In this document: one piece after another, positions 35,323-54,798 of the stretch
How positions within the stretch are numbered: the first letter of the stretch is position 1
How the letters are laid out: the number at the start of each line of letters is the position of its first letter
IMG/VR virus record: IMGVR_UViG_3300021961_000080
Span: 1 to 64,000 of that record
Reading direction: 5' to 3' (one strand)
Origin: a virus
DNA length: 64,000 nucleotides
Program-made: the position numbers and the translations under genes
Notes under the pieces: generated by a model
Told to the model about the DNA's origin: nothing
Seen by the model: only the letters and a program-made list of their open reading frames with translations
The model's database searches: none

Positions 35323-38208
35323 TCAGGTACTTATATCCTGTAGATAACAGTTAGAAAATGGAATTGTAAAAGCGATCACAGACCCATTTAAGATAGTTTC
35401 TACCCTCAAAAGCCATTGATTGTCAAAAGTCACTTCGATAACTTTTCCGACTGCTCTTGGTGGGATAGTTCGCTCTCCTATCTCTATAGATGCACCCGTT
35501 CGCACTAATACCCTTTCTTTTTCAAGATCAGGAAGACTATCAATGTGTACACCATCAGCCGAGAACTCATCGACTGGCTCCGATTCAACTTCTACTATCT
35601 CAGGGTTAGAGATCGGTTCATTTTTTGGAGTAGGAGTGGGAATCTGGACAATTTCCTCTTTTATTTCTGATTGATATTCCAGAGATTCGGGTTCTTCTAT
35701 CTCAAAAGCTTCTAATTCTTTTGGCTCTTGATAGCGCAGTATCATGCCCCTTGATTTGACCTCTAATCGTCCATAGCCAGCTTGTTCTAACTGAGTAAGT
35801 AGGGTGCGGGCAATAGAGGTGTTTACTTTTTCCCCGTTAATTTTACGCCCGCCGAATTTTTGGGCAACTTCCCGGGGTTTAATCTGTCCTGCGCTTTTGA
35901 CAATCTCCCATATCTCGGATAAGATTCCCTGTACCGGATTCTCATCCTGAGAAGTAACCCCTTGAATTGTCAAGAATTGACTGATATAGAAGTCAGTCAT
36001 CTTAGCAGCTTTTTTAGCTGTTTGTACTGGTATTTTATAGAGGTCGGTATTATCTGGATCAAATATCCAGTTCAATAGATGGATTGCCAGAGTAAGCCTT
36101 AAGAAAGTCTTCATCTGTTTCCCTATATAAGAAGCAAATGATGGATTAATCGCCCGATACTTTTTGATAAGCATCTCGTAATGATACTTAATACCGAAGG
36201 CATAATCCTCTCCAGTTTCGGTAAACCAACAATTATAAGGATCGACGATTCCATCTTCATCAGCTTCTAGATTAATCCCGCTGATTTGATTGATAATATT
36301 TTGGATGCACTCTTGAATCGAGTTAGGGTCTTCTGGCGGTCTCCCACGTTGAGGATCGAGGGGTTCATGCAATAGGAAAAGAAACCGAGAAACCAATCCA
36401 TCTACATCATTAGATAGGTCTAAGTATTTTTGTACTTTCTGTATCTGTATCCCACCTAATATATTGATAGTTTGCCCATTCAGGAAATAGCGATTTTCCT
36501 CTTTTACCCTATCAAAAGTATTTTGTACTGGATCATTCCAAGATGATAATAATCGTTGCCGGTCATTACCTTTACCGCCCGACCGGTATTGATTTAAGCC
36601 TTCAAATAATCCCGTTAACTCATCCGCTACCCACACCCCACCTTGCCAACGAGGTTGAGTGGACATCGTTTTCAGGACACCATCGAAAGTTCCTTCGTCA
36701 TAAAACCAGCGACGGGATTGACAGTTTTCTTTTTCGTAAAGACTAGGATTTACTTCAGCGTTTTCTTTGTGTATGCTACGCTCTTCGCGGGTCATTTCTG
36801 CCCATTCTGCTTTTAATTCTTTTAGCCTAGCTTGCTTTTTAGAGAGCCTTTCTAACTCATCTAAGTCCTTTCTTTTTAATACCTTGTAAATTTCTTTTTG
36901 AGTAGTAGTTTTCCCACTACTTACACCACCAGCATCAGCACAATAAAAAATCGGGTATTCTTTCCAGCACTCCCTTTCCCTTGCAGTAGTTCGGAGGTTA
37001 ACTGCAAATCGACTACCTAAGATAGCCCCTAATATTGGCCATAGGGAGTGTAGCAATCGGATTGGGGGCTGGTTAAGTGTTCTGGCGCGGGATATGATTG
37101 CCTCAGCTAAAGGTTGGGGTAATATTTGAAAAAGATCAATCTCTTTTTTCTGATAATGCTTACCCCTTAAAAAACCCTCTAATCCTGTTTTAATAGCGTC
37201 CCCTTCCGCTATTTCTGTTTTACGAATTTCGATTAAATGCCGTATTTCTGTTGGCTTTTTACCAGTGGCTTTTGCCCATAAATCGACTTTTTCTTGCCAT
37301 TGGGTTCTAGTGATTTCCTCTTGTCCAATACAGCCGTCAATGGCTGTTATTAAGTCTTGGAAAGTCATAGTTTCTGTTACTGTGACTTCCTTCTCTTTTT
37401 TCTCCTTTACTTCTTTTGGTTTGTCAACTATCGAGGCTAATAGTTCTTTAAGATCAATTTTCTTTTCCTCAATCCAGTTGATGATATCTACCCCCTGAGA
37501 ATCTGGCAAGTGATTCCATATAAGAGAGTCTGGATAGGCATAAAGCCATTTTGCTTCTGGGAAATCTTGATAAATTTTCTGGCAGTGAGCTACTCCCCCT
37601 TTGTCACGGTCCGGGCATAAAACTAATTTTGCTCCCTTTAAAGCTTCTGTGTGAGACGGTTGCCATTTCTTTGATCCGCCTATATTGCAAGTGGCAACTA
37701 ATCCAAAAGATTCAAGCTTTTCTACTTTAGTCTCACCCTCGACTATATAAATCGGAGTTCCTTCCTTGATAGCCTTTTCTAGGCGATCTGCGTGGTAAAG
37801 AGGTATATTTTTGTACTCAATATCACCTATGCCCCACTTCCAGTTTTTACCATTATCTGTAGAGTGCTGTTGTTTTATATCCTTTTTCCAAATACCATCT
37901 TCTTTGTAATCCTTCCGGTACACACGGACTCTCACCCCATTGGCAAGAGGGGGATAAAGGAAGTATTGGGTTTTTTCTTCTTTATAGGCAGAAAATTTGA
38001 CTTCTTTTTTAAGATAGTAGAGCGGTGTACCCTCACTATCTACTTTGCTCGATTTTTCCCATCCTGGTGCGGGGTCATAGTTTCGTTTGCAGACTGAGAT
38101 GGTATTGCCGTCATCGGCTACATACATATAGCACCAATCGGGCTTGCCACAGTGGGGGCAAGGATTGTTTTTGTCGATCTTGACACGGTTAGAGTTTTGT
38201 GTTACCAT
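35323..38208 (-). CDS. Primase-helicase-like replication protein (zinc finger, TOPRIM, DUF3987-like)
   Basis: 961 aa. Zinc finger CPHCGKPDWC near residues 17-26; TOPRIM-like domain about 150-230 with IYIVEGETKVEKL and VLCPDRDKGG; DUF3987-like ATPase from about 360 with Walker A GGVSSGKTTTQ near 425 and WVADELTGLFEGL as Walker B region. Residues 860-900 are a proline/glutamate linker, and a small beta-domain closes the protein. Such proteins serve plasmid and phage replication initiation. It has its own upstream promoter and a long leader. Confidence 0.8.
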   Translation of the reverse strand: MVTQNSNRVKIDKNNPCPHCGKPDWCYMYVADDGNTISVCKRNYDPAPGWEKSSKVDSEGTPLYYLKKEVKFSAYKEEKTQYFLYPPLANGVRVRVYRKDYKEDGIWKKDIKQQHSTDNGKNWKWGIGDIEYKNIPLYHADRLEKAIKEGTPIYIVEGETKVEKLESFGLVATCNIGGSKKWQPSHTEALKGAKLVLCPDRDKGGVAHCQKIYQDFPEAKWLYAYPDSLIWNHLPDSQGVDIINWIEEKKIDLKELLASIVDKPKEVKEKKEKEVTVTETMTFQDLITAIDGCIGQEEITRTQWQEKVDLWAKATGKKPTEIRHLIEIRKTEIAEGDAIKTGLEGFLRGKHYQKKEIDLFQILPQPLAEAIISRARTLNQPPIRLLHSLWPILGAILGSRFAVNLRTTARERECWKEYPIFYCADAGGVSSGKTTTQKEIYKVLKRKDLDELERLSKKQARLKELKAEWAEMTREERSIHKENAEVNPSLYEKENCQSRRWFYDEGTFDGVLKTMSTQPRWQGGVWVADELTGLFEGLNQYRSGGKGNDRQRLLSSWNDPVQNTFDRVKEENRYFLNGQTINILGGIQIQKVQKYLDLSNDVDGLVSRFLFLLHEPLDPQRGRPPEDPNSIQECIQNIINQISGINLEADEDGIVDPYNCWFTETGEDYAFGIKYHYEMLIKKYRAINPSFASYIGKQMKTFLRLTLAIHLLNWIFDPDNTDLYKIPVQTAKKAAKMTDFYISQFLTIQGVTSQDENPVQGILSEIWEIVKSAGQIKPREVAQKFGGRKINGEKVNTSIARTLLTQLEQAGYGRLEVKSRGMILRYQEPKELEAFEIEEPESLEYQSEIKEEIVQIPTPTPKNEPISNPEIVEVESEPVDEFSADGVHIDSLPDLEKERVLVRTGASIEIGERTIPPRAVGKVIEVTFDNQWLLRVETILNGSVIAFTIPFSNCYLQDIST

Positions 38209-38633: not shown

Positions 38634-38656
38634 CCACAAAAGTTGAGTTTGGCTAT

Positions 38657-38689
38657 AAGTTTTTTGTAAGTTTTTTGTAAGTTTTTTGT
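38657..38689. repeat. Three 11-bp direct repeats, operator-like
   Basis: Three exact tandem copies of AAGTTTTTTGT (CTTACAAAAAA on the other strand), about one helical turn each. They overlap the -35 of the rightward promoter at 38675-38704. The same 11-mer occurs twice at 45257-45278. Confidence 0.75.
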
Positions 38690-38704
38690 AAGGTAGTGTA
38701 AGAT
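38675..38704 (+). promoter_or_regulatory. Rightward promoter of the HTH repressor gene
   Basis: TTGTAA (38675-38680), 18-bp spacer, TAAGAT (38699-38704). The inverted repeat GATAAG-GGTAT-CTTATC follows at 38702-38718. Position fits the start at 38732 with a short leader. Confidence 0.5.
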
Positions 38705-38731
38705 AAGGGTATCTTATCAAAATATGATTTT

Positions 38732-39337
38732 ATGGCTACACCACGGTTTAATAGTGACGGGACACCTCGCAAGCGAGTCAAGGCTTCGGCTCTGACAGAA
38801 AAAGGTATAGTGCGAATGGCTGGCACTATCAAGGGAAAGCGGCTAAGCTTGGGCATGACTCAAGCTGAGTTTACCGAGTGGATATTGAAAGAAGGTAAGC
38901 GGTTGGGCTTGCCTGGCACAGAATTTTCTAATGGCGCAATTCAGAACTGGGAGCTAAAAAATATCGCTAGTTGCCCTGATCTAGGGAATATGCGGCTGTT
39001 GGCTGCTGTATTTGGGCTTGATACGGATTCTTTTGTGAACTATCTTAATGGTGATTGGCCGACAATTCAGGATTTTCTCAAAGACCCAATCAATCAAAAA
39101 AAGGATTGTGTTAAGAATCCTAATCTAATCCCGGAACTTTTTCAGGAAGCTGATACTCAGGTCAAGGCAAAACTTGTAATCAAAGAAGTCGAGTCTCTTT
39201 ATTCAAAACTGGATGAGTTACAAAAAATGATTAAAGAGATCGATCTAGAGGATGTAAAGTCTTTTCTGTGTTCCGCCCCAAAGGAATTACAGAAAGAAGT
39301 TTACCAATATTTACAGGAGAAACTAATCGGAGCGTAA
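38732..39337 (+). CDS. HTH transcriptional regulator (repressor-like)
   Basis: 201 aa. Residues 28-95 form an XRE-like helix-turn-helix with an atypical insert: IKGKRLSLGMTQAEFTEWIL, then FSNGAIQNWELKN and LRLLAAVFGL-like sequence (GNMRLLAAVFGLDTDSFV). The C-terminal half is helical and may dimerise. Only + strand gene in this part, divergent from the ribbon-helix-helix gene, with a strong terminator after it. A CI-like master regulator is a reasonable reading. Confidence 0.65.
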   Translation: MATPRFNSDGTPRKRVKASALTEKGIVRMAGTIKGKRLSLGMTQAEFTEWILKEGKRLGLPGTEFSNGAIQNWELKNIASCPDLGNMRLLAAVFGLDTDSFVNYLNGDWPTIQDFLKDPINQKKDCVKNPNLIPELFQEADTQVKAKLVIKEVESLYSKLDELQKMIKEIDLEDVKSFLCSAPKELQKEVYQYLQEKLIGA

Positions 39338-39340
39338 CAG

Positions 39341-39370
39341 AAAAAACAGAGGGTTAACCCTCTGTTTTTT
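39341..39370. terminator. Bidirectional terminator
   Basis: Perfect palindrome AAAAAACAGAGGG-TTAA-CCCTCTGTTTTTT between the convergent genes at 38732-39337 (+) and 39380-39742 (-). Confidence 0.85.
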
Positions 39371-39379
39371 CTTTGAAAT

Positions 39380-39742
39380 TCATTCAAACATATCATTTGT
39401 TGCTTGATATGTCCTAACTGGAGTAAATCCTTCTTTATCTTTTCGGTTAATTCCGTAGGCACTCAAGTACGGACCACAAAGGGGAACAACTTCTAGATGT
39501 CTGTAATAATTCTCTAAGTTCCATCGGCTACCATCAGAAAATTCGTAAACTGTATATCCGTAAACTATTTCAATTTTTTCTACACTCCCAAGTATCCTTT
39601 TAGTGTGTTTATTTCTAAAAATCTTTTTTTCTGCCCGTTGTTTTTCTTTTTCTATTTTTTCTGGACTCAGATGTACGGGGTCAGGACAAGGCCACTCTAT
39701 CTCACGGGCGGGACAATCTAAAGCCACAAAATTTAAAAACAT
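39380..39742 (-). CDS. Unknown protein
   Basis: 120 aa, AGGAG upstream. N-terminal cysteines (LDCPAREIEWPCPDP) may bind metal. A basic helix (residues 30-45) and a beta-rich C-terminal domain follow (GYTVYEFSDGSRWNLENYYRHLE). Last gene of the long leftward operon that begins at 45182. No family recognised. Confidence 0.5.
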   Translation of the reverse strand: MFLNFVALDCPAREIEWPCPDPVHLSPEKIEKEKQRAEKKIFRNKHTKRILGSVEKIEIVYGYTVYEFSDGSRWNLENYYRHLEVVPLCGPYLSAYGINRKDKEGFTPVRTYQATNDMFE

Positions 39743-39779
39743 AATGAGTTACTCCTAATTCATTTGATTTTTTGACTAA

Positions 39780-40070
39780 TTACTGATCACTTACTTCTGA
39801 TAACTGACGACTTACTTCTGCTATCTGATAACTAAGAATTTGCATATCAAATGTCTTGCACTCTATCTCAATTAATAAAACTTTAATCGTTTCTAATGCA
39901 CATCTTGCTTCTACACAGTCTAAAGACGCTAATTTATCGAGCATCTGTTTATAGAGGATAGCTTTTTCCTTTTTATTGAAGCCACTAGCATCTTCTAACT
40001 CTAATAATCTTTCGATCATTTCTTGAAGCTGAGAAGAGGCTGGCTCATTTAAGATCAGTGGTTCTGTCAT
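39780..40070 (-). CDS. Small helical protein, paralogue of the next gene
   Basis: 96 aa, wholly helical. ILYKQMLDKLASLDCVEARCALETIKVLL aligns with the protein encoded at 40126-40356 (FFNQMLEELLTI... ALNTIKALL). The pair is a small duplicated family, the fourth seen in this window. Function unknown. Confidence 0.5.
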   Translation of the reverse strand: MTEPLILNEPASSQLQEMIERLLELEDASGFNKKEKAILYKQMLDKLASLDCVEARCALETIKVLLIEIECKTFDMQILSYQIAEVSRQLSEVSDQ

Positions 40071-40125
40071 TACCTTACTCCTAATTGTTTTGATTTTTGA
40101 CTGATAACTGATAGCTGATTCTAGA

Positions 40126-40356
40126 CTAATCTAACTTAGATAACAAAGCTTTAATTGTATTTAATGCAATGCCTTCTGGTGTATATCTTGGTACAGATGA
40201 TATAGTCAATAGCTCTTCAAGCATCTGATTAAAAAATTCTAATCGTTCCTTTTTATCGGAGAAAGGAAAAACTAAATCACCAACTGTATCTGTTAGTTTT
40301 TTGGCCATCAACGAAATTTGAGGATCGCGTGCGTAATAGTCAATTTTTTGGCTCAT
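40126..40356 (-). CDS. Small helical protein, paralogue of the previous gene
   Basis: 76 aa. Helical, with the shared pattern QML-x2-L near residue 47 and ALNTIKALLSKLD at the end. Lies between the ParB-like gene and its paralogue, all in one direction, each preceded by similar CTGATAACTGA-type intergenic repeats. Confidence 0.5.
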   Translation of the reverse strand: MSQKIDYYARDPQISLMAKKLTDTVGDLVFPFSDKKERLEFFNQMLEELLTISSVPRYTPEGIALNTIKALLSKLD

Positions 40357-40408
40357 TGTTTTTCTCTAATTTATTTAATAATTTTTTACTGATAACTGAC
40401 AACTAATT

Positions 40409-41470
40409 TTAACTCAATCTTTCTACAAAATCAATGACTTTTCCCCATAACTCTTTAGGGAAATCTACGGTCATTGTATTATCGCTTGTTTGCCTTGCGT
40501 TCCCCTCGTTTACTAGAGTGATTAGCAGACCCTTAGCCTCTTTAGCTTTGGGAGGAAGTTTAATTGGTTTTGGCTCTAATTCGTCGCTGGGTTTTACACT
40601 TCCATCAGAGTCTAGAAAACTTGGATTCTTAGACTCTATAAAGTTGGCTGTTATCGATTGAACCAATTCTCCAGTGGCTTTTATTCCTTTTTCTTCTGCT
40701 ATAGCTACAGTCTCCAAAAGGACATTTTCTTTCTCTGAAAGTGTTAGTTCATTTTTCCTCACAAGGTTGTGTAAAGTCGTTTCGGATACCTTACCTTCGA
40801 TTGCTTTTAATGTCGAAGCAGACATCGAAGAAATCTCTAGAGTTCGATCATATTCTGATTGTTTCCATCCTGTTTTTTTGCAAAACTGTTGACGGGATTC
40901 GTCTTCGGTGAAACCTTCTAATCTGTCCTCGTGTAAATGTCTTTTAATCAATTTCGCCTTGTCATACACCGATAGTTTTTCGCTGTCAGTGCCGTAACTT
41001 AGCATTTGATACTCTAAGTCCCGGACGGTCAGACCTGCTACTAGAGGCTTAATAATCGCCGAAACATTAGGAACAATAATCCCTCGAGAGGCTAAAAGTA
41101 ACCAAGCTAATACCCTTCGATGCCCGTCCATAGGAAACAATCTATCACCGTCCGCAATTAAGTGCAAGGGTTGATGGATTACTCCTGATGCTAGTATCCT
41201 GTCAGCTAATTCTTGAATCAAATCCAAATCGTAGGCGATACGGGTATTCCATCCGTTTTCGCCAGAAATAGACTCAATTAGGTCTTGACTAAAGGTTAAG
41301 GGAGTTTCGTTAGGTAGGACGTGCATTTTGCGGTCGTCATACAGTCCTATCCTCGGACCGATGAAGTCACGATTGGCTAACCTGAAAGAAATTAGTCGAG
41401 GATCAACTACGATTAATTCTCCCCGTGCAGAGCCGTAAGCTCTGATTTTGTCTCTTGAATTTGTACTCAT
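40409..41470 (-). CDS. ParB/Srx-fold protein
   Basis: 353 aa. Residues 70-150 carry the ParB-like core: LQELADRI-type helix, VIHQPLHLIADGDRLFPMDGHRRVLAWL, with DGHRR matching the G-x-RR nucleotide-binding signature. Residues 165-215 form a helix-turn-helix (EDESRQQFCKKTGWKQSEYDRTLEI). The N-terminal 65 residues are an extra beta-rich part. It may act in partition, transcription control or as a nuclease; no ParA gene is next to it. Confidence 0.7.
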   Translation of the reverse strand: MSTNSRDKIRAYGSARGELIVVDPRLISFRLANRDFIGPRIGLYDDRKMHVLPNETPLTFSQDLIESISGENGWNTRIAYDLDLIQELADRILASGVIHQPLHLIADGDRLFPMDGHRRVLAWLLLASRGIIVPNVSAIIKPLVAGLTVRDLEYQMLSYGTDSEKLSVYDKAKLIKRHLHEDRLEGFTEDESRQQFCKKTGWKQSEYDRTLEISSMSASTLKAIEGKVSETTLHNLVRKNELTLSEKENVLLETVAIAEEKGIKATGELVQSITANFIESKNPSFLDSDGSVKPSDELEPKPIKLPPKAKEAKGLLITLVNEGNARQTSDNTMTVDFPKELWGKVIDFVERLS

Positions 41471-41475
41471 GTGTT

Positions 41476-41895
41476 TTACTCCTTAGATGTGTTTGGTTTG
41501 TAAGGCCAACTGTGATATGTTCCGTATATTTCTTTGTAGTCACCCTCGACTACAAAGTTAGAGGCTATTGCTATAGAAAGCATAAACAAGTTAGCATCTG
41601 TCTTTAATTGTTTAGGAATAAAAACATCTGTCTTGCAAAAAGCAAGAAATAACCACACCCAAAATGTTATTTTCTTTGTAATAGATTGATTCCAATCGTA
41701 ATTATCAAGAAGAAGACAATCCATTATATTGCCTTTGATTGCGGATTTATAAAACAGTTCTAAATAGTCTAATTTAGGATTCTGCTTCACTTCTAATACT
41801 AAAGCGTCAACGTATTGTTTAGCTTCGATAGGCAGTCTATCGTATTGTTTCCGAACTAGCATTGCGCGTCGAATGTCCATTTGTTGAATGTCCAT
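41476..41895 (-). CDS. Paralogue family C, member 1
   Basis: 139 aa, AGGAG upstream. Family C pattern: LP-x-EAK-x-YVD-x-L near residue 20, a hydrophobic stretch KITFWVWLFLAFCKTDVFIPKQL near 80, and SIAIASNFVVEGDYKE near the end. The hydrophobic helix suggests a membrane-associated or buried core. Unknown function. Confidence 0.55.
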   Translation of the reverse strand: MDIQQMDIRRAMLVRKQYDRLPIEAKQYVDALVLEVKQNPKLDYLELFYKSAIKGNIMDCLLLDNYDWNQSITKKITFWVWLFLAFCKTDVFIPKQLKTDANLFMLSIAIASNFVVEGDYKEIYGTYHSWPYKPNTSKE

Positions 41896-41937
41896 TGGGT
41901 TACTCCTGTTTTAGATTATTTTTAGTTGTTTCTTGCT

Positions 41938-42336
41938 TTATTCGTAGTCCCAATCATAGGGAGGTTCGTTGACATAACCTTCTTCTACAAAATAACTAGC
42001 TATAACAAGAGATTGCAGAAGAAGACAATAGTTTTCTTTGAGAATTCTAGGTATTACTACACCTGTTAGTAACGAATACAGAAACAGGAATATCCTAGTT
42101 TTTAAGTACCAAAAACACCCTCCTTCTCTGAAAAGATCAGCGTCAATAAATGCGCCGCTCAAAAGTACATCTATGCCACCTGTTTCGATTGCGCCATCAT
42201 AAAATCCTTTTAACACTGTTGATACAAAGGGCTTTTTCGATGCTCTGGTTGCTAAGCGATTGACGTAATGCTTGGCTTCTTTTGGTAACTCATCGTAACT
42301 TAAATCGATTAGTATTCGATAGGTTTGAGTGTTCAT
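41938..42336 (-). CDS. Paralogue family C, member 2
   Basis: 132 aa. LPKEAKHYVNRLATRASKK at the start, LKTRIFLFLYSLLTGVVIPRIL in the centre, SLVIASYFVEEGY at the end. Shares all three blocks with member 1 and with members 3 and 4. Confidence 0.55.
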   Translation of the reverse strand: MNTQTYRILIDLSYDELPKEAKHYVNRLATRASKKPFVSTVLKGFYDGAIETGGIDVLLSGAFIDADLFREGGCFWYLKTRIFLFLYSLLTGVVIPRILKENYCLLLQSLVIASYFVEEGYVNEPPYDWDYE

Positions 42337-42347
42337 TGTTTTACTCC

Positions 42348-42740
42348 TTAGTTGTTGTCGGTTATTTCTTTATACCAGCTTTTTTCTACTAGAAAAATCG
42401 ACGCTAGTGTTAAAGCTTTTCTGAAAAGATGTGGATATTTCTTGAGAGGAGAAGGAATAGTAATTCCTGTACATATAGGCATAACAATAGTTACGACCCA
42501 AAACTTAAACCGATTAATAAAAGAAAGATTCCATTTATCATCGGATAAATACGGATAGATGTATCCTTTTTGTATATCCCCTTCCCACCACCAGATTAAT
42601 ATCTCATTAGTTACTTGACTGGTTTCAGATGCTTTTAACAAATCATCGATCCATTTTTTTGAGTCAAAAGATGATTCGAGGTATTTATTTTTAACTATAA
42701 GCTTAAGTAGTCGATTTTTGAATTGCGGGTTGATGTTCAT
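42348..42740 (-). CDS. Paralogue family C, member 3
   Basis: 130 aa. SKKWIDDLLKASETSQVTNE, IWWWEGDIQKG, INRFKFWVVTIVMPICTGITIPSPL and ALTLASIFLVEKSWY. The F-W-x4-(F/V)-x-P-x-(C/Y)-TG-(I/V)-x-IP block is closest to member 4. Confidence 0.55.
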   Translation of the reverse strand: MNINPQFKNRLLKLIVKNKYLESSFDSKKWIDDLLKASETSQVTNEILIWWWEGDIQKGYIYPYLSDDKWNLSFINRFKFWVVTIVMPICTGITIPSPLKKYPHLFRKALTLASIFLVEKSWYKEITDNN

Positions 42741-42795
42741 CGGTTTACTCCTTGATTGTGTTAATTATTGCTGACAACTGATAGCCAAAATCAAA

Positions 42796-43020
42796 CTATT
42801 GAAATTTATCAACTGCCCCCCTTTTTTTTATTATTTCATCTGTTTTATCCATCATTATTGATGTAAAAAGGTCAAGAGCATCTTGGTTACTTTGCGCTAA
42901 TGCCATTAACTCTTCTGGGTTAGATTTCATGAAAATATCTAAATTAGTAGCCATGATAGATAAAGCTTCAATTTTTCGCTTTAAACTCCAATCTTTCGTT
43001 AATTTTTCTTCATGTGTCAC
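42796..43020 (-). CDS. Small helical protein, unknown
   Basis: 74 aa. Charged helices (LKRKIEALSIMATNLDIFMKS, then PEELMALAQSNQDALDLF). Not a member of family C though nested among its genes. Unknown function. Confidence 0.45.
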   Translation of the reverse strand: MTHEEKLTKDWSLKRKIEALSIMATNLDIFMKSNPEELMALAQSNQDALDLFTSIMMDKTDEIIKKRGAVDKFQ

Positions 43021-43083
43021 TGTTTTACTCCCTAATTGTGTTAATTCTTACTGATAACTAATAACTGATAACTAATCAGACTT

Positions 43084-43740
43084 CTAAATACGCCAATCGC
43101 TTTCGACTAAACGCGTTGAAGCTAACAGTAACGCCCTTTTAAAAAGAACGAAATCTTTCCTGATTGATTGTGGTATAGAGATTCCCGTATAAATAGGAAT
43201 AAAAGTCGTGAGTCCCCAAAATTTAAGAGCGTCAATGAAAGAAAGGTTAATGCCTTCTATTTGCCCGCTCCCTTGCCAGTACCACCACTCTAAAAGCTGT
43301 TTAACTCTTGGATTAGTAGATGATTCTAGAATATTAACCCATTTTTTTGCGTCGTCAGACAAGTTGTCGTAGGTATTCTTTGAATCATACTCAAAAGATT
43401 TACTTATTTCCAAATCATTCCAATCAAAACCCCACTTTTTAACACAGACCGTGAGGACTGGAAAAGAGGTAACTTTTCCTTTAATCCAGATATAATGTTT
43501 GCCTGGTTTTAATGAGTCTATCAAGGTGATTTTTTCGAGAATAAACAAGTATGTTAAATCAAGCTTGATGGTTTCCCATGTAAATTTACACAGGATTTTA
43601 AAGTTCAAAGTTTGATCGGAATTTACATTGCTAACCTGTCCATACAAACAAATAGAATCATTACTTTTAACTAAGGCTTGTTGCACTTGATCAGCAGTCA
43701 GTTCTGTCCACCAACCACGGCTTAAAAGATTCATGTTCAA
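43084..43740 (-). CDS. Paralogue family C, member 4, with extra N-terminal domain
   Basis: 218 aa. Residues 1-115 form a beta-rich, OB-like domain absent from the other members (SICLYGQVSNVNSDQTLNF, HYIWIKGKVTSF). Residues 125-218 are the family C part: LSDDAKKWVNILESS, LEWWYWQGS, IDALKFWGLTTFIPIYTGIS and LLLASTRLVESDW. The fusion suggests that family C proteins work with a nucleic-acid-binding or scaffold module. Confidence 0.55.
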   Translation of the reverse strand: MNMNLLSRGWWTELTADQVQQALVKSNDSICLYGQVSNVNSDQTLNFKILCKFTWETIKLDLTYLFILEKITLIDSLKPGKHYIWIKGKVTSFPVLTVCVKKWGFDWNDLEISKSFEYDSKNTYDNLSDDAKKWVNILESSTNPRVKQLLEWWYWQGSGQIEGINLSFIDALKFWGLTTFIPIYTGISIPQSIRKDFVLFKRALLLASTRLVESDWRI

Positions 43741-43825
43741 TACTCCTTGATTTCTATTTTTAGATTTTTCAGTTCTTCGAGCTTTTTTTCAGTTTGTTTA
43801 ATTGCTTTAAGTCTTTTTTCTTCAC

Positions 43826-43860
43826 TGACAACTGACAACTGACAACTGGCAACTGGCAAC
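43826..43860. repeat. Heptanucleotide tandem repeat
   Basis: Five units of TG(A/G)CAAC. Related CTGATAACTGA-type strings lie at intergenic ends near 39.78, 40.1, 40.39, 42.77 and 43.05 kb. Such short repeats are common between genes in cyanobacterial genomes. Confidence 0.75.
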
Positions 43861-43866
43861 TAACTA

Positions 43867-44877
43867 TTAAAAATCTTCAGTAACAGGTTCGCTACCACCA
43901 TAATCAATATCTTCACTGCTAACTTCTATTGGCTTTTGTCTCGCGTCTATAGCTTTTTTTAGGAGGTCAGCTAGTTCTTTTGCAGTGGTTGCTTTTTGTG
44001 CTATTTCTTCAGCTTCTGATTGAGGTAAGTTTTGAGAAACAGCCCAAGCAATACCAGCTTGTTTGCGATCTTCTGGTAGCGATGGTGAAGGGTTAAGCAT
44101 TTTTGCGTTTCCCATCGACGCAGGAGTTAGAGTTTTTACAGGTTCTACATTTCCTGTAAATTGCTGAAAAGCTTTTGTTTCAATGATTTCTAGAACTTGA
44201 GATGCTCTGCTAGGGTGAACACGAATCGACAAAAGGCTAAAAGTTTTTCGTTTTCGTGTGCCGTCTGGTAAAGGATAAGATAATTCTCTTAAGCCGCGTT
44301 CTAATAAAAAGGGAATACCAATCAAACTACCAGCAGAAGTTTCAATCGCTAACAGTTGTTCTGTCAATCCGATAATATCCCATTTTGAGTGAGTCTCAAC
44401 TTCAAAATAACCTAATTCGCCTAGCTTGGGTAAAACAATCTGCAATCGCCCAACTTGCTTGCATTTACACCCTGAATAACTTCCGTCAGGGTTTTGTTGT
44501 CGTTTGCATGGGATGGGATTAGTAGCAATCATTTTGCCAGCTTGCTGATAAATCACTTGCTTTTCTTCGTCACACCGAATCATCAACCCAGAAGTTTTTA
44601 AATCTTTATCACTCCACTGCTCCATCCAACAAGGAAATACTTGATCTGTATAAGGAAAAGGTAACAAGCAATCTAATTGCTTAGGCTCTTTCCCGTAAAT
44701 AGCGGTAAATTTTTCGCTGATTCCCTGAATATCAGAATCAATTCGGAAGTATTCTAAATCATCTCCGCTTATTAGAGTGCCAGGTTTTTTAGGGTTTTCT
44801 TTTTTTTCTCCCCCTTTGCGAATTTTTCCTAATAGAGGAAATCGGGCTTGTCTTGTCGTTAGAGATTTGATAGGCAT
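43867..44877 (-). CDS. Recombination directionality factor-like / phage metal-binding protein
   Basis: 336 aa. Start MPIKSLTTRQARFPLLGKIRKG with PGTLISGDDLEYFRID matches a phage and plasmid family annotated as recombination directionality factor-like or hydrolase/metal-binding. A cysteine cluster (IPCKRQ, SGCKCKQVG) lies near residues 125-145. The C-terminal 90 residues are a flexible linker and helix. No integrase is in the window, so control of excision is unproven. Confidence 0.5.
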   Translation of the reverse strand: MPIKSLTTRQARFPLLGKIRKGGEKKENPKKPGTLISGDDLEYFRIDSDIQGISEKFTAIYGKEPKQLDCLLPFPYTDQVFPCWMEQWSDKDLKTSGLMIRCDEEKQVIYQQAGKMIATNPIPCKRQQNPDGSYSGCKCKQVGRLQIVLPKLGELGYFEVETHSKWDIIGLTEQLLAIETSAGSLIGIPFLLERGLRELSYPLPDGTRKRKTFSLLSIRVHPSRASQVLEIIETKAFQQFTGNVEPVKTLTPASMGNAKMLNPSPSLPEDRKQAGIAWAVSQNLPQSEAEEIAQKATTAKELADLLKKAIDARQKPIEVSSEDIDYGGSEPVTEDF

Positions 44878-44888
44878 TGTTTTTACTC

Positions 44889-45182
44889 CTAAAATGGAAG
44901 GTTTCTATGTAGTTCAGAATAGATAGATGATGGAAGCTCGTCTATTTCTTTGCCAGCAAAATATTTGACCACACTTGGGCAAGTAACATCATGAGACTCG
45001 GTTACTTCTCGAAGCTTTGACATAACCACTTGCTGTGCTTGAGATACAAGAAGCTCGTAGCAAGCGTCAGGGTCTTCGCCGTCTTCTGGCTTGCCATGAA
45101 TATTTATACTTACATTCACGGACTCAAAGTTACCGAGGTTGACTTTTTGACTATATTCTACTGAGATATGGGTAATAAGCAT
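44889..45182 (-). CDS. Conserved phage protein, unknown
   Basis: 97 aa from the ATG at 45182. A purine-rich GAGAGGAG abuts the ATG, so spacing is poor, but the next alternative start is a distant TTG. ISVEYSQKVNLGNFESVNVSI is a motif shared by a family of small phage proteins of unknown role. The rest is helical. First gene after the strong promoter at 45211-45239. Confidence 0.55.
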   Translation of the reverse strand: MLITHISVEYSQKVNLGNFESVNVSINIHGKPEDGEDPDACYELLVSQAQQVVMSKLREVTESHDVTCPSVVKYFAGKEIDELPSSIYSELHRNLPF

Positions 45183-45210
45183 CTCTCCTCTCTTAAACTT
45201 GATTAATACA

Positions 45211-45239
45211 ATCTTATAGTAAATTACTAGAATTGTCAA
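45211..45239 (-). promoter_or_regulatory. Leftward promoter of the 39.4-45.2 kb operon
   Basis: Minus strand TTGACA (45239-45234), 17-bp spacer, TAAGAT (45216-45211). The extension TTGACAATTCTAGTA is shared with the promoter at 34851-34879 base for base. Confidence 0.8.
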
Positions 45240-45256
45240 GATTTTTAAGAAAAAAA

Positions 45257-45278
45257 CTTACAAAAAACTTACAAAAAA
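45257..45278. repeat. Two 11-bp direct repeats, operator-like
   Basis: Two tandem copies of CTTACAAAAAA, the same 11-mer as the three repeats at 38657-38689. They lie about 18 bp upstream of the leftward -35 box, a position for repression or activation. Confidence 0.7.
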
Positions 45279-49033: not shown

Positions 49034-49106
49034 TAGGTTGAGCAGGAATCGAACCTACCTAAGACGAATTATGAGTTCGTTGCCTTAACCGCTCGGCCAT
49101 CAACCC
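49034..49106 (-). tRNA. tRNA with CAU anticodon (Met or Ile2)
   Basis: Acceptor GGGTTGA/TCAACCT (one G-U), D-arm GCC-GAGCGGTTAA-GGC, anticodon arm ACGAA-CTCATAA-TTCGT, and T-arm GTAGG-TTCGATT-CCTGC. CCA is not encoded. The anticodon could be read as elongator Met or, if modified, Ile(AUA); the AUA-rich codon use of an AT-rich phage would favour the latter. Confidence 0.85.
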
Positions 49107-49111
49107 TTAAC

Positions 49112-49285
49112 CTATTTAGGGAAAAACAAAGCAGGAGAGATATTAAAAAAATCGGCTAATTTTTGAATATGAACAGCCGTTAACTCTTGTTGTCTATTAA
49201 AAATATCATCTAAAGTTGACTGATTTTCAAAAATAGATAATAAATCTTGCTTCTGCAAGTTCTTTAGTTCTAACAAAAATTTCAA
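49112..49285 (-). pseudogene. HigA-like antitoxin, C-terminal half (frame-shifted from 49282-49521)
   Basis: 57 codons from a TTG at 49285 overlapping the preceding stop (TATTGA). The sequence KFLLELKNLQKQDLLSIFEN, then IFNRQQELTAVHIQKLADFF and NISPALFF is the helix-turn-helix half of HigA-type (COG5499) antitoxins. It lies in the -1 frame relative to the first half, so the gene is broken or needs frameshifting or restart. Confidence 0.6.
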
Positions 49286-49521
49286 TAGTCAATTCCATAA
49301 ATATCAGGTATTACCTCGTGTGTTTCTTCGTATTCATAAATTAAAGCTCCTAAAACACTTAAATATTCCCTTTCTTCTATTGTTAATTGGATTTTATCTA
49401 ATCTAATTTTATCTAAAAAAGAACTAATAACTTTTTCCGTGTTTTCTAATTCTTTCTTATTATGAATAGGACGAGGTGGGTATTGCTTTAATAATTCTAA
49501 GTATTTATCTGTATCAAACAT
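49282..49521 (-). CDS. HigA-like antitoxin, N-terminal half
   Basis: 79 aa. DTDKYLELLKQYPPRPIHNK, then LTIEEREYLSVLGALIYEYEETH is the N-terminal half of COG5499-type antitoxins, which normally runs straight into an HTH domain. Here a stop follows at DIYGIDY, and the HTH half continues in another frame. No HigB toxin gene is adjacent. Sits between two tRNA genes. Confidence 0.6.
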   Translation of the reverse strand: MFDTDKYLELLKQYPPRPIHNKKELENTEKVISSFLDKIRLDKIQLTIEEREYLSVLGALIYEYEETHEVIPDIYGIDY

Positions 49522-49594
49522 AGTGTGACCTTGATTCCTGTAACTTTTTATTATAGGTCAAGTCTTTGATTTTGTCAATATGTTTTATTTTAGT

Positions 49595-49677
49595 GGGTTG
49601 GGCTGGATTTGCACCAGCGTGGAATTAAATCTACAGATTTACAGTCTGTCACCTTCGGCTACTCGGTCACCAACCCT
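49595..49677 (-). tRNA. tRNA-Tyr (GTA)
   Basis: Acceptor GGGTTGG/CCAACCC (7 perfect pairs), anticodon arm ACAGA-CTGTAAA-TCTGT with anticodon GTA, long class II variable arm, T-stem GCTGG/CCAGC with an unusual T-loop TGCAAAT. CCA is not encoded; discriminator A. Confidence 0.92.
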
Positions 49678-52398: not shown

Positions 52399-52911
52399 TT
52401 AACCGCCAATCCCCACGGGTTGAGGTACAGGCTGAGGTTTACTTAAGTCTCTAACTACCAGGGGATTTTCTACTAAATAAATAGCGTGTTTTAGTTTAGC
52501 CGATGCTAATTGTGCAGATTCTAAGCATCTGCGTTGAGTTTCTGTTAGTTCATTTTTGTTGATATGTGTAGTTAATTTGTCTCCATATCGAATTAATAAC
52601 CGTTTAGTCTGTTGTTCTCTTTCCCGTAAATAATCGACTGCTGATTGTCCATAGAGTAATTCAATTCCGTAGTCACTTTGTTTGCAAACTACTTTCTCGT
52701 TACGCTCTTTTTGAAAATAGTTTTCTATCCAATTCATCCGATTATGTAGCTTAGGACCATAAGAAGCATTCGATGGACTGCATCCTACCCAGTGAGACTG
52801 CTGTAATACTTCAAAAGGAATGATTTGACCTCTTTGGATATTTTCTATGTCTTGAATTCTTTTTTGCCGATTTTGTTTTTTCAGTTCTGCAATTAGTTCG
52901 TTAGCGTCCAT
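52399..52911 (-). CDS. Unknown protein downstream of the pentamer array
   Basis: 170 aa from the ATG at 52911. Helical, charged (MDANELIAELKKQNRQKRIQ), middle with HWVGCSPSNASYGPKLHN, and a proline-rich end (KPQPVPQPVGIGG). No family recognised. The DNA directly upstream is the pentamer array, so any promoter must lie within or beyond it. Confidence 0.5.
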   Translation of the reverse strand: MDANELIAELKKQNRQKRIQDIENIQRGQIIPFEVLQQSHWVGCSPSNASYGPKLHNRMNWIENYFQKERNEKVVCKQSDYGIELLYGQSAVDYLREREQQTKRLLIRYGDKLTTHINKNELTETQRRCLESAQLASAKLKHAIYLVENPLVVRDLSKPQPVPQPVGIGG

Positions 52912-52945
52912 TGTTTTCTCTTGATAATAAAGAACCCCTACCCTA

Positions 52946-53681
52946 ACCATGCCACAATACCCTACCAAGCCTTACCAAACCATACCATGCCAAACCAGAC
53001 CTAACCTTACCAAGCCACAATACCTTACCCCGCTAAACCAAACCATGCCAAGCCTTAATACCCTGCCTGACCCCACCAAACCTTACCACACCAAACCTCA
53101 CCGGACTTCACCTCACCACGCCAGACCGAACCTAACCTTACCCCACCTTACCGAACCTCGCCATACTCCACCACGCCGTACCATGCCTCAATACCCTACC
53201 TTACCTCACCCTACCAAACCGAACCTCACCTGACCCCACCAAGCCTCGCCAAGCCCCACCAAACCTCAATACCCCACCTCACCTTACCCCGCTAAACCAA
53301 GCCATGCCAAACCTTAATACCCTACCATGCCTTACCTGACCACACCGGACTCTACCACACCAGACCACACCGGACCTCACCACACCGGACCAAACCCTAC
53401 CTCAATGCCCTACCAAACCTCACCCCACCTTACCTCAATACCCTACCTTGCCCGACCTAACCTGACCTTACCCCACCGAACCTTACCAAACCAGACCCCA
53501 CCTGACTTGACCTTGCATTACCCGACCTTACCTCACCTCGCCTAACCATACCTCAATACCCTGCCACACCTCACCCTACCTTACCTCACCATGCCAGACC
53601 AAACCACAATACCCTACCATACCCGTCCTAACCTAACCTCACCTGACCTTAGCGTACCGTACCATGCCTTACCTCAATACC
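52946..53681. repeat. Degenerate pentanucleotide array (R-C-C-N-N)n with 8-nt phase-setting units
   Basis: About 735 bp of (A/G)CC followed by two variable bases. Eleven marker units with AATAC (once AATGC) lie at 52956, 53019, 53057, 53190, 53268, 53316, 53404, 53437, 53555, 53608 and 53676. All ten intervals (63, 38, 133, 78, 48, 88, 33, 118, 53, 68) leave remainder 3 on division by 5. So each block is one octamer plus whole pentamers with no other net length change. Open + strand frames here only reflect the repeat. Confidence 0.9.
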
Positions 53682-53714
53682 ACAGATTAAGGGGCATTAA
53701 AGCCCCTTGATTAA

Positions 53715-54389
53715 TTAAGCAGCTATATCATAGAAGCCAAGCATATTGAATTGTAGGACTTTAAACTTACCAAATTTAACACGAAAGTCACCAATCCCAA
53801 TACGACGACCAGCATCGACAATGAAGTTTTTTACTGAGTCAACGTCGATCAATGAAGTATCAATCAAGAGAGACGCAGCACCGACATAACCGCTAGGGAT
53901 TCTTACTCGGTTTCTCATGATTTTAGAAGTACCAATCCGAACGGATCGACAATCAACGAATCTGCCATAGGGGTCTTCCCACATTTCAGAAGCGTCTTTT
54001 GTACCTTCGTAATCTAAGATTATTAACTCATCATCTACCTGAGTAACAGATTGACTAACTTGTTTGCCCATTTTAGAAGCTTTAGCGGCCTCTTGAATAG
54101 ACCTGATTAAATACTCTGTAGGGACGGCGGGATTGCCGTATCCTTCAAAAACAAAGTCTTCCCCTTGTAAGTAGCATCGCCCTTCTGTTGCCCAAACACC
54201 AGAATTTAACCAATCAGCTTTTTCCATCGAAGCTAATACATATTCAGTTTTAGCTTTTCCTCTTCGATTCTTAATTGGTTCAATTGTTTTATTTACTTGA
54301 TTTTTGGGATTCATACCAGCAGACGAATGCAAAAGCAGGTCTGTTGTTCCTTGTATCTGAACTTCGATAATTTTTAGATTGCTAGTCAT
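53715..54389 (-). CDS. Conserved phage protein of unknown function
   Basis: 224 aa. IQGTTDLLLHSSAGMNPKN near residue 12, the KTEYVLASMEK region, YGNPAVPTEYLIRSIQEAAKASKMGK near 83, and the C-terminal AGRRIGIGDFRVKFGKFKV match a widespread phage protein of about 200 residues that starts with G-x-(T/S)-x-LL-H. The glycine-rich end and opening motif recall Cas7/RAMP-like folds, but that is only a resemblance. Has its own promoter. Confidence 0.55.
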   Translation of the reverse strand: MTSNLKIIEVQIQGTTDLLLHSSAGMNPKNQVNKTIEPIKNRRGKAKTEYVLASMEKADWLNSGVWATEGRCYLQGEDFVFEGYGNPAVPTEYLIRSIQEAAKASKMGKQVSQSVTQVDDELIILDYEGTKDASEMWEDPYGRFVDCRSVRIGTSKIMRNRVRIPSGYVGAASLLIDTSLIDVDSVKNFIVDAGRRIGIGDFRVKFGKFKVLQFNMLGFYDIAA

Positions 54390-54443
54390 GTGGAAAATCT
54401 TCCTGAAATTGTAAGTATAGGTAACTTACGTTAACTATACTTA

Positions 54444-54473
54444 AATATACCATAAGCTTTATAGAAATGTCAA
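54444..54473 (-). promoter_or_regulatory. Leftward promoter
   Basis: Minus strand TTGACA (54473-54468), 18-bp spacer, TATATT (54449-54444). TTGACATTTCTA and GCTTATGGTA are shared with the promoter at 55167-55196. Confidence 0.7.
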
Positions 54474-54531
54474 GTAAGAAGTCTAAAGATTTTGCTTTAA
54501 CAGTCCTATCGCCACAGGGCTTCCCTGATAT

Positions 54532-54798
54532 TTAATCATCTCCCCAGTCTGGGTAGTATTGCAAATAGACAGCTTGTCGCTCGGTAGCCTGCTTTTCAAG
54601 TTTTTCAATTTTTTCATCGTCAAAACCATGCTCCCAAATTAGAGAATCAAGAAACTGGTCTTCTTTCTCTATAAACAATTCCTTCTTAACCATGAAATCT
54701 TGGCAACCATAAGACATCCCTCCGCTTTTCCCTATAAAAATAAGCGCATTGTCTTCAACGGTCGCCAAAAGCTCTTTTAATTGTTTTGCAGTAATCAT
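54532..54798 (-). CDS. Small acidic protein, unknown
   Basis: 88 aa from the ATG at 54798, chosen for its CAGGAG. MITAKQLKELLATVEDNALIFI opens as a helix-strand unit, and the C-terminus is acidic (YYPDWGDD). Follows the gene at 54821-55135 by 22 bases. Confidence 0.5.
   Translation of the reverse strand: MITAKQLKELLATVEDNALIFIGKSGGMSYGCQDFMVKKELFIEKEDQFLDSLIWEHGFDDEKIEKLEKQATERQAVYLQYYPDWGDD

Follow-up and report, generated by a model that had tools for sequence, protein, structure and literature searches.

The pentanucleotide array at positions 52946 to 53681 of the window, the 64,000-nt stretch of viral DNA analysed here, is very probably the guide bank of a VIPR system carried by a cyanobacterial phage. 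VIPR, described only in 2026 in a preprint (PMC13142463), pairs a phage RAMP protein, Vipr, with vrRNAs of alternating GGY and NN units, which guide Vipr to double-stranded DNA and are read as NN-skip-NN; the preprint presents it as a CRISPR-related phage weapon against rivals and proposes it as the ancestor of CRISPR guide systems. We found no further literature on VIPR besides this preprint. Our assignment is based on the association of such arrays with a single gene family across many loci, the profile match of that family to a Vipr of the Protein Data Bank, its RAMP fold, the fit of the NN letters to codon positions, the guides whose targets could be decoded and the turnover of guides between sibling phages. 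VIPR itself has already been described, and what is new here is a cyanobacterial phage case with a decoded natural target. The locus offers an independent check of the one-base-skip code and extends VIPR to a cyanobacterial phage, whose array packs ten or more guide segments into about 730 nt.

The informative strand of the array is the minus strand, on which it reads (GGYNN)n as one continuous tract of ten segments and eleven markers. Parsing of 52946-53681 by script recovered 138 five-base units between the first and the last marker, with C at position 2 in 137 of 138 units, C at position 3 in 131 of 138, and A (112) or G (25) at position 1. The initial annotation, which had described (A/G)CC-N-N repeated about 140 times in a fixed 5-bp phase and interrupted by eleven AATAC or AATGC units that shift the phase by 3, is borne out on both counts: eleven AAT[A/G]C markers were parsed, and the ten distances given for them (63, 38, 133, 78, 48, 88, 33, 118, 53 and 68 bp) are exact, all being 3 modulo 5. 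The raw segments range from 5 to 25 units. The virus record of 67,154 bases contains 39 seven-unit RCCNN runs, overlaps counted, all within the array and on a single strand, and the backwards-read control pattern has no match in that record. The array holds no CRISPR-type direct repeats separating contiguous spacers, the seven neighbouring genes tested have no Cas domain, and no Rfam elements, the hammerhead included, were found in this array or in ten other array loci. Two plus-strand ORFs of 94 and 72 aa do lie inside the array, as would be expected of a repetitive protein-coding region, but the frames are broken by stop codons and neither content nor length is conserved in the sibling phage, so that a coding function has almost no probability.

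The annotation had also advised searching relatives for the pattern and asking whether the variable dinucleotides are non-random, and it was this search, together with the dinucleotide test, that gave the solution. Nine RCCNN units in a row, sought across IMG/VR, turned up in at least 120 stretches; the NN values are diverse in nearly all of those listed, unlike those of a simple satellite. In a set of 121 array loci, the window included, all neighbouring ORFs were clustered, and one gene family (PHROG 4652) lies near the array in 87 of the 121 loci listed (88 by profile); the median distance is 53 bp, and the gene is almost always on the strand that reads GGY. A second, unnamed family of about 174 aa lies beside the array and shares the strand of array and vipr in 24-25 of the listed loci (e.g., L094, L015 and L095) and is a candidate vap, the accessory gene that is typical of VIPR though not universal (PMC13142463). 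A degenerate satellite, produced by slippage and mutation and devoid of function, would account for the local unit duplications seen within related arrays, but about 95-99% of units retain the CC, with NN close to saturation, the array sits beside one gene family in many phages, and one segment matches an integrase gene in 22 of 22 letters (below); we give this explanation practically no credence. For comparison, a plain GGTTG/GGTCT satellite in Paenibacillus sp. yr247 (L137, 2488-2637) mimics the array pattern and makes a useful negative control.

The array-adjacent gene of the window, vipr (53715..54389, minus strand), encodes a 224-aa RAMP protein, identified by profile, fold and homology matches, and the array lies directly downstream of it. 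PHROG 4652, with function not assigned, is the sole annotation of its product. A profile built from 65 array-neighbour proteins matches the Vipr of Escherichia phage SUSP1 (PDB 36pp) with E=5e-49 and no other PDB entry at E up to 1; the window Vipr alone matches 36pp with E=7e-10, the two proteins being about 25% identical. The AF2 model of the window Vipr has a pLDDT of 93.9, and all 50 of the 50 Foldseek matches listed for it are RAMP subunits of CRISPR complexes; as modelled, the protein folds like a RAMP of the Cas7/Csm3 type. A G-rich C-terminal motif is almost invariant (G194, G198, R203 and G207). PHROG 4652 matches SUSP1 (2e-98) and none of 14 control genomes, and a genome scan using the window Vipr as query gave no relative. 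It should be noted that phrog_4652 corresponds to Vipr, which tblastn places in 127 phage records, mainly of Escherichia and Salmonella phages, where it is annotated as a hypothetical protein. At the level of sequence, the locus is a Vipr-family RAMP gene followed on the same strand by adjoining tandem units in which GGY is conserved and NN is hypervariable.

Published VIPR targets lie in competing mobile elements, with the skipped base mostly at the wobble position (PMC13142463), and the guides decoded here conform to this pattern. Guide W3a (53498..53552, minus strand; 11 units) agrees in 22 of 22 NN letters, read with a 1-nt skip, with the integrase gene of L210, a contig from a related cyanophage, at a site encoding IYDDNRKNHQG, and equally (22/22) with the integrase gene of Planktothrix agardhii plasmid p1, though the codons there differ from those of L210 at the skipped bases. 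The match holds only when one base is skipped, the bases passed over being codon wobble positions; other skips yield 14-16 letters (14-15 for skips 0, 2 and 3 on L210), and the maximum among 300 unit-order shuffles was 18 letters, with 0/300 reaching 22. When up to three mismatches were allowed, W3a found only six places in 22 whole records, the exact ones being L210 and plasmid p1, and the backwards control had no match in the same records. As a sequence match, this target assignment is firm. Every segment of at least 8 units was tested against L210. In the sibling phage L129, guide S2 (12 units) has an 8-unit core with four matches in IMG/VR, of which the one in L210 can be extended to 22 of 24 letters. 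The sequence there codes for LKGIRDYALLMLL, part of a tyrosine integrase (Pfam PF00589), and S2 and W3a thereby match the same L210 gene. The evidence of the letters for the S2 assignment is strong. One guide of the window and one of its sibling thus spell sites in a mobile-element integrase gene, read with one base skipped at the wobble position. Contig L210 has a 96%-identical protein in common with L133, which is another contig of the L129 sibling type, and 67-86% identical proteins in common with the window; the window, L129 and L133 yielded no homolog of the integrase so targeted.

The 11 units after W3a, guide W3b (53443..53497, minus strand), have no match in the L210 integrase gene. 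They resemble the LFKSxNQYR motif of DUF3987 replication proteins of cyanobacterial plasmids in 16 of 18 letters (0/300 shuffles in a 3.3-kb locus), and the window phage's own DUF3987 gene (35323-38208) is a poor match; this resemblance is suggestive only. Segment W7 (53196..53265, minus strand) is the sole guide common with L129, its first ten NN being identical, and no target was found for it: its exact 10-unit core has no match in IMG/VR, the 8-unit version has 11 matches, none extending, and whole cyanobacterial plasmid records gave none with 3 mismatches. An 8-unit version of W6 has 52 matches in IMG/VR, many of them in frame as F-[IM]-F-F-G-K-D-G, and is too short to judge, and W1 has 2 matches there, neither extending. 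Targets were decoded for only two or three of the about 18 segments of the window and its sibling. Matches of the guides to their own or sibling genomes were not above those of shuffles.

The skip code was also examined without reference to targets. In 308 array runs, NN letters were compared with the dinucleotides at codon positions 1-2, 2-3 and 3-1 of genes on the same contig, on both strands. Positions 1-2 gave the best fit in 176 of the 308 runs, the others in 111 and 21, and swapping the letters within each NN changed these counts to 113, 121 and 74; in mixture log-likelihood, positions 1-2 lead the other two frames by 90 and 706. A fit to codon positions 1-2 is exactly what a skip at the wobble base predicts; the NN letters are non-random and information-bearing. 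Two further approaches were less informative: NN and Y conservation was compared between similar guides, where most similar pairs were chance, and local skip-rule scans over fetched loci were uninformative because some loci had been retrieved by the same pattern or were microsatellites.

Comparison with L129 reveals two siblings with 95%-identical flanking genes in which the guides have been replaced almost completely. The vipr genes are identical in 95.1% of bases, the spacers between vipr and array in 30 of 33 bases and the downstream genes in 95.5%, and the two arrays have the same outer edges. Nearly all guides nevertheless differ, W7 being the only whole guide in common, plus short fragments. 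The L129 array has 8 segments against 10 in the window and extends over 580 nt against 729 nt, with each of its segments 0 modulo 5. The view of the initial annotation that length changes are not tolerated thus holds inside each segment and fails between relatives, where array length varies freely by whole units and segments and the 5-nt pitch alone is constant. Its argument for selection on phase fares similarly: the phase appears functional, with protein binding unit by unit as the likely cause, but changes by whole units or whole guides are common among relatives. A fixed 5-bp phase is consistent with each unit of the RNA carrying a single protein subunit, and a pitch set by the protein would explain why it stays rigid while length is free to change. 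It is now a concrete, testable question by what means, in the absence of an acquisition enzyme, guides are exchanged.

The suggestion of a partition, packaging or recombination site is not upheld, as the evidence favours guide RNAs to which a RAMP protein binds. A site in DNA where proteins bind cooperatively at a 5-bp pitch, whether serving one of these functions or as origin iterons, would be in keeping with the rigid spacing and the single copy per genome. Such a site is nonetheless very improbable, since the NN letters carry decodable target sequence, siblings differ by guide replacement and arrays track the RAMP gene across unrelated phages; in addition, a 5-bp pitch is half a helical turn, which would be awkward for binding along one DNA face.

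Within the guide bank, the phase shifts are due to 8-nt markers reading GGTATTRN on the minus strand, mostly after a purine-purine unit. The first occupies 53674..53681 and the remaining ten start at 52954, 53017, 53055, 53188, 53266, 53314, 53402, 53435, 53553 and 53606; one, at 53404, is the AATGC variant and the other ten are AATAC. These units look like guide boundaries, because W3a, W7 and the near-duplicates W6 and W9 each begin directly after a marker and other phages carry other markers at the same position, many loci having GGCAGGC (a 4-nt unit), L115 GGCTAATG and L028 GGCGTTCAR. W3, however, appears to contain two 11-unit guides (W3a and W3b) adjoining without a marker between them, and a marker might act in processing, in capping or as a promoter. 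After the repeats there is only the short GGTATTRN marker, a structured 3' tail like that of SUSP1 being absent between guides. A scan of genomes for the marker matched only a Paenibacillus microsatellite. Recurring phase-shifting markers of their own, of 8, 9 or 4 nt, were observed in the unrelated phages L115, L028, L091 and L117. We offer tentatively, as a possibility with the odds against it, that in-line punctuated arrays (a short phage-specific marker of 4, 8 or 9 nt separating guides in a continuous GGYNN tract) form a distinct compact class of VIPR array, where guides come and go as complete modules next to the marker and the phage would thereby keep a heritable, rapidly changing record of its rivals with no known acquisition enzyme.

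The closest known system is the type II VIPR of SUSP1, with which the locus has in common a homologous RAMP protein, a flanking array with GGY/NN on the strand of the gene, the 1-nt skip and targets in rival mobile elements. In contrast, the four vrRNAs of SUSP1 are separate and all end in a structured 3' tail, in place of a continuous tract of ten segments with 8-nt markers, and the phage studied here has a probable cyanobacterial host and no recognised homolog of the vap gene. Array architectures do differ between VIPR types, the invariable 3' tail having been shown for the SUSP1 clade (PMC13142463); the staggered or overlapping arrays mentioned in the preprint (fig. S18) are likewise continuous GGY/NN tracts with several guides and may belong to the same class as this locus. 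Published vrRNAs have 9-16 repeats (PMC13142463); W3a has 11 units and S2 has 12, and the raw segments have 5-25. Class 1 CRISPR-Cas effectors (Cas7, Csm3) resemble the system in their RAMP fold and bank of changing guides, and in the published VIPR model the protein, like Cas7/Csm3, interrupts guide-target pairing periodically; the locus differs from class 1 systems in having no repeat and unique-spacer structure, no Cas domain among the seven neighbours tested, and a 5-nt pitch with two informative bases. By analogy with the published system, the array would be transcribed into vrRNAs, on which every 5-nt unit would bind one Vipr subunit and so fix the phase; GGY would be held by the protein and NN would pair with DNA, and the complex would repress genes of rival phages or plasmids. 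The role of GGTATTRN in marking where one guide ends and the next begins is suggested by our data only.

Several flanking elements may serve the locus. A promoter-like site, TTGACA-18-TATATT, its second hexamer preceded by TG (54444..54473, minus strand; 11/12 consensus matches), faces vipr and the array from upstream and is the only one found in 52850-54600; shuffles give 2.9 sites of any quality, and the site alone is therefore not functional evidence. A hairpin, AAGGGGC-loop-GCCCCTT (53686..53711, minus strand), lies between vipr and the array. The downstream 170-aa gene (52399..52911, minus strand) is a candidate accessory gene, conserved in the siblings and with no relatives found beyond them; its predicted structure has a pLDDT of 52, and no relation between it and known vap genes could be recognised. 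A cyanobacterium is the most likely host, because the only relatives of the portal protein are in two Cylindrospermopsis phages and the best plasmid matches of the DUF3987 protein are cyanobacterial.

Some minor observations concern the surrounding sequence. A palindrome, AAGTATAG...CTATACTT at 54415-54450, between the promoter-like site and vipr, is a possible operator. A possible start of the downstream ORF is an ATG in the last array unit (ATGGTTARGGTAGGGGTTC, window 52885-52960), in frame in both siblings, and the array end and gene start may therefore overlap. A few kb from the array (49034-49676) the phage carries two tRNA genes, one for Met(CAT) and one for Tyr(GTA), and there are several short tandem repeats in 38656-45278, 7-21 bp in size, among them ACTGACA and ACTGATAACT.
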